Below, piece after piece: positions 2,778 to 56,994 of a DNA stretch of 64,000 bases. Position numbers and translations under genes: made by a program. The DNA is from Corynebacterium freiburgense. GTDB taxonomy: Bacteria; Actinomycetota; Actinomycetes; Mycobacteriales; Mycobacteriaceae. The stretch is from contig NZ_CP047355.1 in assembly GCF_030408815.1 (NCBI RefSeq), forward strand, positions 1,674,001-1,738,000. The letters run 5' to 3'. Position 1 is the stretch's first letter. Every line of letters begins with the position of its first letter. The notes under the pieces are model-generated. The model saw nothing but the letters and a program-made list of their open reading frames with translations. It was not told where the DNA came from and ran no database searches.

Positions 2778-2849
2778 TGGTCCCAACTGGGATTGAACCA
2801 GCGACCTTTCCGGTGTGAACGGAACGCTCTCCCACTGAGCTATGGGACC
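2778..2849 (-). tRNA. tRNA-Val (anticodon CAC)
   Basis: A complete cloverleaf reads on the minus strand: acceptor GGTCCCA pairs with TGGGACC, the D arm is GCTC/GAGC, and the anticodon loop TTCACAC gives CAC. The T arm is GCTGG-TTCAATC-CCAGT. The 3' CCA is not encoded (CAA follows the discriminator A). It is isolated and opposite to the tRNA cluster at 3.1–3.65 kb. Confidence 0.95.
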
Positions 2850-3079
2850 TTTGTACAGGACAAAACCTAACACAGCTGGAATTTCCGGTCCAATCTTCCC
2901 AACCACCGCTACCCCTTTTCGACGTCCCCTTCATAGGCGTTTACTGGCCACATTGCGCTTTCCATCACAAAACCTCGAAGCCTTCGCGCGCTGAACTGGG
3001 CATTTGGCATTTTCGGCGCTGGCGGCTAATGTTTGTTCTCGCACCACAAGAACAAAGTTGTAGCTTGAAGTGGCGCAAA

Positions 3080-3152
3080 GCGGATGTAGCGCAGTTGGTA
3101 GCGCATCACCTTGCCAAGGTGAGGGTCGCGAGTTCGAGTCTCGTCATCCGCT
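3080..3152 (+). tRNA. tRNA-Gly (anticodon GCC), copy 1
   Basis: The acceptor GCGGATG pairs with CATCCGC, the anticodon stem-loop is CACCTTGCCAAGGTG with GCC as anticodon, and the T loop is TTCGAGT. It is the first gene of the plus-strand cluster; two identical copies follow. Confidence 0.96.
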
Positions 3153-3188
3153 CTGGTACTATTTTGGTACCTGAGGCGGTATCGCCGC

Positions 3189-3259
3189 GGTGGAATGGCC
3201 GAGTGGTGAGGCAACGGTCTGCAAAACCGTGCACACGGGTTCGATTCCCGTTTCCACCT
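3189..3259 (+). tRNA. tRNA-Cys (anticodon GCA)
   Basis: The acceptor GGTGGAA pairs with TTCCACC. The anticodon stem ACGGT/ACCGT frames loop CTGCAAA, giving GCA. The T arm is CGGGT-TCGATTC-CCGTT. Confidence 0.95.
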
Positions 3260-3269
3260 CAAAACGCTA

Positions 3270-3341
3270 GCGCGTTTAGCTCAGCGGGAGAGCGCTTCCC
3301 TGACACGGAAGAGGTCACTGGTTCAATCCCAGTATCGCGCA
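3270..3341 (+). tRNA. tRNA-Val (anticodon GAC), copy 1
   Basis: The acceptor GCGCGTT pairs with ATCGCGC with one T–T mismatch. The anticodon stem CTTCC/GGAAG frames loop CTGACAC, giving GAC. The T loop is TTCAATC. It lies in the upstream copy of a tandemly duplicated Val–Gly unit. Confidence 0.94.
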
Positions 3342-3376
3342 CGAGAGTGGTATCTGCTCTTTTCTTTCAGATACAT

Positions 3377-3449
3377 GCGGATGTAGCGCAGTTGGTAGCG
3401 CATCACCTTGCCAAGGTGAGGGTCGCGAGTTCGAGTCTCGTCATCCGCT
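3377..3449 (+). tRNA. tRNA-Gly (anticodon GCC), copy 2
   Basis: Identical over its length to the copy at 3080–3152, with the same acceptor stem and GCC anticodon. It is the Gly partner of the first Val–Gly duplicated unit. Confidence 0.96.
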
Positions 3450-3471
3450 CCAAGTTCTTTATGGGCTTTGC

Positions 3472-3543
3472 GCGCGTTTAGCTCAGCGGGAGAGCGCTTC
3501 CCTGACACGGAAGAGGTCACTGGTTCAATCCCAGTATCGCGCA
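3472..3543 (+). tRNA. tRNA-Val (anticodon GAC), copy 2
   Basis: Identical to the Val gene at 3270–3341 and displaced by exactly 202 bp. It belongs to the second copy of the duplicated unit. Confidence 0.94.
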
Positions 3544-3578
3544 CGAGAGTGGTATCTGCTCTTTTCTTTCAGATACAT

Positions 3579-3651
3579 GCGGATGTAGCGCAGTTGGTAG
3601 CGCATCACCTTGCCAAGGTGAGGGTCGCGAGTTCGAGTCTCGTCATCCGCT
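3579..3651 (+). tRNA. tRNA-Gly (anticodon GCC), copy 3
   Basis: The third identical tRNA-Gly(GCC) and last gene of the cluster. An intrinsic terminator begins 13 bp downstream. Confidence 0.96.
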
Positions 3652-3664
3652 CCAAAACTTAAAG

Positions 3665-19593: not shown

Positions 19594-19680
19594 ACCACCC
19601 CATTGTGCTCCCCGGAATCCATACTGACTACCCGCCTTCCGCGCCATATGGTGAACCGCCTTTTGTTTGTAGGGCTCTTT

Positions 19681-19749
19681 GGCCAGTGAGAATGTTGGGG
19701 GTTGGCCGGTGAGAGTGTTGGGGGTTGGCCGGTGAGAGTGTTGGGGGTT
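19681..19749 (+). repeat. Three tandem 23-bp GT-rich repeats
   Basis: Units GGCCRGTGAGARTGTTGGGGGTT occur at 19681–19703, 19704–19726 and 19727–19749; the last two are identical. They open the GT-rich arm of the large non-coding element between suhB and ppgK. Confidence 0.9.
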
Positions 19750-19836
19750 GGCTCTGGTTTTTCGGGAAAACTGTTGTGACTCTTGTGGTTTTTGAGGCTG
19801 GTGAGGCTGTGGTGTTATGGGTTCCAGCGAGTCTGG

Positions 19837-19988
19837 CTGGTTTTGGCCTGGTTTTGGCCTGGTTTTGGCCGGTGGTTTGGTTGTGCGCTTGTAGTGAGCT
19901 GGGATTTGGTTGGGTCTGGTTGGGTCTGGTTGGGTCTGGTTGGGAGGCGGTCGGTCTTTTCTGGCGCTGGTCAGTCTTTTCAGGCGCT
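19837..19988 (+). repeat. Cluster of short tandem GT-rich repeats
   Basis: Three 11-bp units CTGGTTTTGGC (19837–19869), three 10-bp units TGGGTCTGGT (19911–19940) and two 20-bp units starting GGTCRGTCTTTTC (19949–19968 and 19969–19988) follow one another. They share the GGTTKGG theme but differ in period. Confidence 0.88.
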
Positions 19989-20000
19989 GGTTGGGCGTGT

Positions 20001-20046
20001 TGTCACAGATTCCATTTTTTCGGCGGATTTTATGGAATTTGTGACA
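20001..20046. repeat. Hairpin unit A (TGTCACAGATTCCAT arms)
   Basis: TGTCACAGATTCCAT is followed by a T-rich loop and ATGGAATTTGTGACA, a 15-bp inverted repeat with one G·T change. It belongs to a family of five such units in this window. Confidence 0.9.
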
Positions 20047-20062
20047 CGATAGGTAGCGAACC

Positions 20063-20108
20063 TGTCACAGATTCCATTTTTTTCGCTGTTTTAATGGAAT
20101 CTGCGACA
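20063..20108. repeat. Hairpin unit B
   Basis: TGTCACAGATTCCAT is followed by a T-rich loop and ATGGAATCTGCGACA, with one mismatch in the stem. It is separated from unit A by the conserved spacer beginning CGATAGGTAG. Confidence 0.9.
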
Positions 20109-20535
20109 CTAGGTATACAAACATCACTAGTTTGATAGGGTGCGCCTATTAAAACCCCTGGAAGGCCCAGCCCACGCCCCCCCCAGGAAAGCGGAGACGG
20201 CTAGACCTTCCACTCGGGAAAAGCAGCCTGCGGATCCGGACTCCAGCGCAAAATCTCGGAAAACCAGCCGCCTGTCCGAGAAACCTCGGCACCTTCAGCC
20301 CACGCACTCAAAAACACGCACTCAAAGAATCAGCCCACCCACCAGGAAACCGCAGGCAGCCCAGCTTCGCCAACCGCATATCAGGCGCACCTAAACCAAC
20401 GTCCCCCCACCCCATGGAACAAAGACCAATCAAATTTTCGGAGACAAGTTCAATGATTACCCCTAAAATACACATAGCCTTGTGTAATCCAGCTCCCAAA
20501 AACACCCGAGGTTTAACGCCAAGTACAATATCCTC

Positions 20536-56222: not shown

Positions 56223-56482
56223 CCCATAATGGCTAAACCCACAATGTGAACTGCTCCCCGTTTGTTGGGTTGCACTGGGACTTGAAGCTGGTCTGGTCAT
56301 GCTGTCACAGATTTCACCAGGGGTGGCCTGGGGAACAACTTGCTCAGGGCTCGTTTTTATGGGTGTTGTGGCCGGTGGTTTGGTTGTGTGCGTCCGGTTA
56401 CATGGGATTTCGTTGGATCTGGTTGGGAAATGTTTGATCTTTGGGCGCCGGCCGGTCTTTTTAGGCTGCTGGTTGGGCGGGT

Positions 56483-56528
56483 TGTCACAGATTCCATTTT
56501 TTTCGTTGTTTTTATGGAATTTGTGACA
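56483..56528. repeat. Hairpin unit C
   Basis: TGTCACAGATTCCAT, T-rich loop, ATGGAATTTGTGACA. It has the same arms and the same one-base change as unit A at 20001–20046. Confidence 0.9.
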
Positions 56529-56544
56529 CGATAGGTAGGGATCC

Positions 56545-56590
56545 TGTCACAGATTCCATTTTTTTCGTTGTTTTTATGGAATCTGTGACA
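56545..56590. repeat. Hairpin unit D (perfect)
   Basis: TGTCACAGATTCCAT and ATGGAATCTGTGACA form a perfect 15-bp inverted repeat around a T-rich loop. It follows unit C by the conserved spacer CGATAGGTAG. Confidence 0.92.
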
Positions 56591-56626: not shown

Positions 56627-56673
56627 TGTCACAAATCCCACCGGAACGGGCCTGTTTTATGGAATCTGCGACA
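56627..56673. repeat. Hairpin unit E (diverged)
   Basis: TGTCACAAATCCCA on the left and ATGGAATCTGCGACA on the right, with a GC-richer loop. It is a degenerate member of the same family. Confidence 0.8.
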
Positions 56674-56994
56674 TTAGCAATAAAAACATCACTAGTTCAA
56701 TAGGATGGGCCTATCAAACGCCCGGGGAAACCAGCGAATACCTTGGCAAAACCAGCCCACCCGCCGGCAAAACCAGCCAAACCCCAGCTAAAGCGGCTCA
56801 AACACCCCAAAAACCAGCCCACCCATCCCAAAAACTCTGGCAAACCACCCCCACCCGCCAGGGAAACCAGCGACAACAAACCCCTGGTCCCAAAAAACAA
56901 CTACATCAAGTGCACCCAAACCAACGCCTAGCCCTCCAAACCTCAAGAAAAGTGGGTTTGGGGGCTTAAAACCTGGAAGTTGAATGCTTACGCG

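Follow-up and report, generated by a model that had tools for sequence, protein, structure and literature searches.

A dispersed hairpin-array repeat of Corynebacterium freiburgense as a probable MITE-like element bounded by ends of an IS3-family insertion sequence

In a 64,000-nucleotide stretch of the Corynebacterium freiburgense chromosome (hereafter the window), two non-coding segments share an unusual layout, in which the plus strand is G+T-rich to the left of a group of hairpins and A+C-rich to the right, and this raises the question of what kind of element carries such a pattern. A preliminary description of the locus, which recognised these two copies only, had named a miniature mobile element, a structured RNA locus and a nucleoid- or replication-related site as candidates. 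Based on the analyses reported here, we propose that copies 1 and 2 are quite probably non-autonomous MITE-like elements of about 0.5-1.0 kb, bounded by the two ends of an IS3-family insertion sequence (IS). What began as an odd composition pattern can thereby be described as a mobile family, with defined termini, a count of its copies and a likely IS of origin.

Copy 1 lies between genes encoding an inositol monophosphatase and a ROK protein, which we take to be suhB and ppgK, and a gene for a PEP-utilising enzyme, presumably ptsI, stands to the right of copy 2 (Table 1). The hairpin arm TGTCACAGATTCCAT, searched with up to 3 mismatches, matched the window at 12 places, while the shuffled window gave a mean of 1.8 and a maximum of 6; 11 of the 12 matches fall inside the two copies. 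The earlier view that copy 2 repeats the layout of copy 1 is borne out. Several tandem repeats had also been described in the arms, and this holds for the left arm of copy 1, where Tandem Repeats Finder listed four arrays; in its right arm, as in copy 2, it listed none. The bounds have to be moved as well: the termini place copy 1 at 19652-20452 rather than at 19681-20405, and the left terminus of copy 2 places its start at 56247 rather than at about 56.3 kb. Scored against profiles that had been trained on the family copies, the left and right ends of copy 1 reach 26.5 and 32.1, against shuffled maxima of 11.2 and 9.7, and each is the best-matching place in its own region to the ends derived from the IS described below (11/26 and 6/27 mismatches). 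The right terminus of copy 2 was not found, the best profile score on that side (8.8) being below the shuffled maximum of 9.7 and the best match to the IS-derived end still being off at 13 of 27 positions. A 136-codon open frame at window positions 19725-20135 spans the G+T-rich arm of copy 1; it is probably spurious, because this arm is poor in A and hence holds few stops.

Table 1. Features of the two element copies in the window (positions counted from the first base of the window)
Feature	Position	Strand	Basis
Element copy 1, end to end, 801 bp	19652..20452	+	copy-trained profiles, IS-derived ends, array-free gap in L035
Copy 1 left terminus, starts TGAACC; degenerate, 11/26 off the IS end	19652..19677	+	
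Copy 1 G+T-rich left arm	19678..20000	+	composition, family profile
Copy 1 tandem array, 23-bp unit, 3.2 copies	19679..19752	+	Tandem Repeats Finder
Copy 1 tandem array, 11-bp unit, 3.1 copies	19837..19870	+	Tandem Repeats Finder
Copy 1 tandem array, 10-bp unit, 3.8 copies	19907..19944	+	Tandem Repeats Finder
Copy 1 tandem array, 20-bp unit, 2.2 copies	19949..19991	+	Tandem Repeats Finder
Copy 1 hairpin 1, 15-bp arms, 16-base loop	20001..20046	+	
Copy 1 hairpin 2 (copy 1 is without hairpin 3)	20063..20108	+	
Copy 1 conserved tail 3′ of the array, ACATCACTAG..GATAGG..CCTAT	20120..20155	+	
Copy 1 A+C-rich right arm	20156..20425	+	composition, family profile
Copy 1 right terminus, last bases GTTCA; 6/27 off the IS end	20426..20452	-	
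Copy 2 left terminus, 4/26 off the IS end	56247..56272	+	
Copy 2 G+T-rich left arm	56273..56482	+	sequence, family profile
Copy 2 hairpin 1	56483..56528	+	
Copy 2 hairpin 2	56545..56590	+	
Copy 2 hairpin 3, degenerate 5′ arm	56627..56673	+	
Copy 2 A+C-rich right arm; outer limit approximate	56717..56950	+	sequence

The two copies belong to a large family rather than forming a pair. The first 22 hairpin bases, with up to 3 mismatches, matched the genome 97 times in forward and 89 times in reverse orientation, and grouping the listed matches by hand, by position, gave 83 loci, a number that is a lower bound; C. freiburgense thus carries at least 83 copies (hairpin clusters), every one on the main contig, and all 83 loci were taken with their flanks for comparison. 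The usual core consists of three 46-bp hairpins at 0, +62 and +144, with one or two in some copies, and the median identity between copies is 77-88% (80 copies with matches). Element length has a median of 780 bp and a range of 490-961 bp among the 21 copies with both ends strong. The compositional pattern that first drew attention to the locus is real: the family-mean GT content is 0.76 immediately left of the core and 0.31 to its right, the left arm reaches GT>=0.65 in 71/83 copies, the right arm reaches AC>=0.60 in 69/83, and both arms pass in 61/83; flanking windows passed the arm thresholds in 1.0% (n=827) and 2.7% (n=596) of cases. The word CTGGTTGGG is common to 62/83 left arms, and several right-arm words each occur in about 30 of the 83 copies. 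Because both arms are part of the repeated unit, the mirrored GT/AC bias is passed on with the element. An inverted homology of the left with the right arm was considered and set aside, being weak (mean z 1.3; 21/83 copies).

Comparison of the flanks, with the termini located by mismatch counting, revealed shared ends, which are TGAACTGCTCCCCGTTTGTTGGACTG on the left and, reverse-complemented, TGAACTTGCCCCCGAAAGTTAGACTGG on the right. By the copy-trained profiles, 41/83 left and 62/83 right ends lie above the 95% shuffled level; 31/83 copies pass at both ends and 72/83 at one end or more. When up to 2 mismatches are allowed, a pattern spanning both ends is present in 94 of the 242 Corynebacterium genomes, C. 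freiburgense counted. At 11 of the 30 loci taken for inspection, facing ends lie 1428-1441 bp apart around open reading frames and bound an IS of about 1.44 kb; at one locus (L254) both IS ends are of the right type. Intact IS copies such as L244 and L248 carry ORFs of 160 and 273 aa. The 273-aa ORF of L248 (OrfB) is identified as an IS3-family transposase by the NCBIfam model, whose cut-off of 160 bits it exceeds with a score of 312, and it has rve and HTH_21 domains. Insertions of this family have TG..CA ends and short target duplications, and by a visual count 7 of the 11 IS loci are flanked by a perfect 3-bp duplication.

The ends of the element agree closely with those of this IS, its left consensus with the IS left end at 24/26 positions and its right consensus with the IS right end at 28/30, while the swapped comparisons gave 20/26 and 19/26. 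At consensus level, the termini of the element match those of the autonomous IS, with left and right types kept distinct. A second test was independent of the copies, since its query ends were taken from other genomes: with up to 9 mismatches of 26 or 27, IS-derived ends were found at 23/83 left and 26/83 right termini, and the controls gave 0/83 on the wrong strand and 0/83 in resampled sequence for each side, and 8 and 6 for swapped ends. By this test, 40/83 copies have at least one end and only 9/83 have both, and because so few copies keep both ends, our confidence in the IS3-derived reading is slightly lowered. In the window, one end of each copy reaches the same threshold, namely the right end of copy 1 and the left end of copy 2; the left end of copy 1 and the right side of copy 2 do not.

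Additionally, the flanks of some copies carry traces of insertion. With the ends placed by the profiles, 4-bp flanking repeats occur in 5/31 copies, against a permutation mean of 0.32, and 3-bp repeats in 1/31, against 1.05 expected. In a refined register, which covered 25 copies, 4 bp are duplicated in 3/25 (p=0.004), 3 bp alone in 3/25 (p=0.08), and either 3 or 4 bp in 6/25, against a permutation mean of 1.37 (p=0.001). An exact target duplication is absent from most copies, and at copy 1 three of four flanking bases match (ATGG/ATGA). The duplications lend moderate support to an IS3-type insertion.

Sites without the element, for which the preliminary description had recommended looking, were found in relatives, and the suhB-ppgK gap that holds copy 1 is among the array-free loci. 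Read by eye, this gap is only about 100 bp long and without an array in L035, which belongs to the sister species (PpgK 90% identical), and likewise short and without an array in L036 (PpgK 85% identical). For sixteen C. freiburgense sites, both flanks could be placed in the sister species; 11 of these sites are without a main-family array there and 5 are occupied, in a sample biased towards occupied sites, as the first sister stretches were picked for holding arrays and only the second batch was chosen by contig number; five further sites had matches and were not mapped on both sides, and the other 62 had no match. At 8 of the 11 array-free sites, the sister gap is 421-1137 bp shorter than that of C. 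freiburgense; at L062 and L119 it is longer, and at L061 it is 300 bp shorter and contains hairpins of a second family. The cleanest case is L066, where the C. freiburgense insertion begins directly behind the upstream gene's stop codon, and the same gene in the sister runs straight into the downstream flank. At three shared sites (L077, L078 and L117), the C. freiburgense copy is far closer to other copies in its own genome than to the sister copy, which suggests homogenisation or repeated insertion; at L064 and L118 the sister site gave the best score, in stretches that include flanking sequence. The IS-like ends, the array-free sites in relatives, the at least 83 dispersed copies and the moderately supported target duplications in some of them together uphold the miniature mobile element among the candidates named at the outset.

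The hairpin itself was found in few genomes. A search of other Corynebacterium genomes, also recommended in the preliminary description, returned the hairpin pattern in 2 of the 242 genomes; the two are C. freiburgense and G219, whose match places are identical to those of G266, the genome of L035. Among 397 genomes sampled from the order, the spaced hairpin occurs in C. freiburgense only. In the genome that contains L036, no hairpin-arm match was obtained genome-wide at up to 1 mismatch, and no similar hairpin families were seen in a small sample of 84.6 kb. A phage or plasmid origin was rejected, as neither phage nor plasmid collections contained a match to 141 bases of the core, and the exact spaced-hairpin pattern had no match in viral contigs.

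We propose that an IS3-type transposase acted on the element in trans, that its source IS would now be unrecognisable in the C. freiburgense genome, and that insertion with 3-4 bp target duplications could have produced the copies counted above. The search of this genome for OrfB gave no close relative, only three places, the best at 31% identity and the others broken or weak, and a profile search gave two rve matches. In the genome-wide search, the two rve and three OrfB-like places all lie outside the mapped elements, so that, judged by these positions, the element copies appear to contain no transposase gene. The OrfB query also had no match in the 88% complete sister assembly. The end pattern, at up to 2 mismatches, matches four places in the C. 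freiburgense genome, all of them at mapped elements; an autonomous partner was thus not found there and is known from other genomes only. An IS3-type gene at 1.665 Mb was rejected as the partner, its OrfB being 32% identical over 105 aa and element-type ends there coming no nearer than 10 mismatches. Unless served by a diverged transposase, the element seems stranded for want of a closely related autonomous partner, and it would at present be immobile.

Mobilisation by a different enzyme was also weighed, as palindromes that alternate in orientation, in many copies and mostly outside genes, are what a REP/BIME element moved by a RAYT (Y1 transposase) would present. This explanation is disfavoured and extremely unlikely: Y1_Tnp had 0 matches in the C. 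freiburgense genome in a search that detected it in 5 of the 14 genomes used as controls, no consistent GTAG or CGTC tag was seen by eye beside the hairpins in the consensus, and the unit is 0.5-1.0 kb long with IS3-like ends. The GTAG- and CGTC-tagged REP/BIME sequences described in PMC3733652 are alike in being palindrome families with varying stems and often many copies. However, stems are mostly 6-9 bp in the GTAG families (PMC3733652), whereas those of the present element are 15 bp, its IS3-type ends enclose the array, and its genome yielded no RAYT.

The cargo of the proposed IS3-derived element, lying between the G+T-rich and the A+C-rich arm, would be the array of 46-bp hairpins, which is built with considerable regularity. 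Its 15-bp arms enclose 16-base loops in 191 of 222 C. freiburgense and 60 of 68 sister hairpins, and neighbouring hairpins are separated by 16 or 36 in 136/139 cases in the former and by 15 or 36 in 49/53 cases in the latter. The arms alternate in orientation, and the steps between them, of 31 and 51 bp, come near to whole numbers of helical turns, an arrangement compatible with a protein assembly. Helical phasing is nevertheless not put forward as proof of protein binding, because T-run slippage also yields 11-bp steps; the enlarged loops, of 25-28 bases, would suit such an assembly as well, and their extra 9-12 bp are tandem duplications of the kind that slippage between T-runs produces.

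Such arrays could be selected chromosomal sites that bind a putative nucleoid or replication protein, with the IS ends incidental. The strict arm, loop and gap spacing in two species and the near-helical steps speak for this explanation, as do a second sister family, which has the same TGTCRC..GYGACA ends and a spacer related to that of the main one, and a deficit of gaps below 5 kb between copies (5 observed versus 10.8 expected, p=0.02). We nonetheless regard it as distinctly improbable, since the overall spacing is as in random points (inter-copy gap CV 0.94 versus 0.98, p=0.37), the orientations stand at 45 to 38, the gene contexts are mixed, the hairpin was found only in the few genomes given above, and the loop enlargements are expected anyway from slippage. 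A role at the origin or terminus, or one requiring even spacing, was likewise rejected, positions and orientations being random-looking apart from the slight deficit of close pairs. According to a crude ORF caller, with core-overlapping ORFs below 250 aa removed first, 26 sites are convergent, 39 tandem and 18 divergent, and this mixture agrees with the earlier judgement that a simple promoter or terminator role does not explain the element; by the same caller, an ORF lies at or across the core at L064, L073 and L135. Because of the near-random positions, the mixed gene contexts and the presence in only two sampled species, a largely selfish element is favoured; the array may take part in DNA packaging or in transcription.

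That the hairpins act as structured RNA or as a bidirectional terminator is very unlikely. The arm mismatches in C. freiburgense are almost exclusively A-C or G-T, and the minus strand folds lower in 64/83 copies, a bias that follows from most arm mismatches being A-C on the plus strand; however, the changes are inherited between copies and represent few independent events, so the fold bias carries little weight. A terminator scan of copy 1, which allows loops of 3-8 only and is thus blind to hairpins with 16-base loops, gave 5 sites, compared with a mean of 1.8 (sd 1.6) in shuffled sequence; the left arm holds four of the five. Against these points, Rfam at gathering thresholds matched only tRNAs in the window, no T-runs were seen by eye 3′ of the copy 1 hairpins, and the sites occur in every gene context.

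The arrays of the sister species bear on where the cargo came from. Their clusters range from a few arms up to eight hairpins, with a common spacer that resembles CAGGTCAACG.TTGTGCGCAA. The second sister family consists of hairpins of about 47 bp (TGTCGCC..ACACCA..TGGTGT..GCGACA), with 27 arm matches in 642 kb; its terminal hexamers are those of the main family and its spacer is related, and a few copies are found in C. freiburgense (L228, L230 and L231). Under one and the same procedure, an IS-like end lies within about 700 bp of 1/18 sister arrays, compared with 41/83 C. freiburgense copies and 3/83 resampled sequences. Since the sister arrays nearly all lack IS-like ends, the hairpin array is probably older than the IS3-type shell, and may be a dispersed repeat that was caught between IS ends in the C. 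freiburgense lineage. The array thus occurs in two settings, since one species has it enclosed in an IS3-type shell and the other for the most part has no such shell around it, and repeat capture by a transposon becomes testable. A related reading, in which the phased arrays are a functional protein-bound repeat under concerted evolution in each genome, captured and spread by the IS3-type shell, is unlikely; if true, a transposable element would distribute ready-made chromosomal binding arrays.

Compared with the IS3-family IS of Corynebacterium, the element has both termini alike over 26 and 30 positions, with the left and right types distinct, and differs in being about half as long and in carrying hairpins in place of transposase genes. 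Bacterial MITEs may resemble their autonomous IS at the ends only (PMC3852290), and the element is like these MITEs in its IS-like inverted ends, its many copies and, with moderate support, occasional target duplications; it is rather long compared with them, and its hairpin array is also present independently in the sister species. Among the matches listed for repeats, MITEs and IS3 derivatives, titles and abstracts describe neither this hairpin-array family nor an IS3-derived MITE in Corynebacterium.

Several further observations were made on the way. The second-family hairpins of the sister (L162, L163, L170, L184, L186 and others) are often paired 73 bp apart. An identical distance of 205 bp between two arrays, or parts of arrays, recurs at three sister places (L166:13059-13709, L175:3356-4099 and L171 near 16417), where the arrays may belong to a larger repeating unit. 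A collinear block of at least 13 kb, L228:13-13045 (C. freiburgense 746,013-759,045) against L229:3181-16219, is 92% identical between the two species, while identity in the sequences flanking mapped element sites is 64-93%, mostly below 80%; the block looks like a recent DNA exchange. It contains second-family hairpin arrays, and its 10 scanned ORFs are ordinary-looking, one being without a family, so that an autonomous element between the second-family arrays at 746-759 kb was rejected. The second contig (G000:C2; L238) of 13,965 bases is without a hairpin of either family and had no near match among the plasmid records searched. Within the window, seven tRNAs lie at 2778-3651, and at 3270-3655 a 202-bp unit that contains tRNA genes is repeated in tandem without any difference (1.9 copies).
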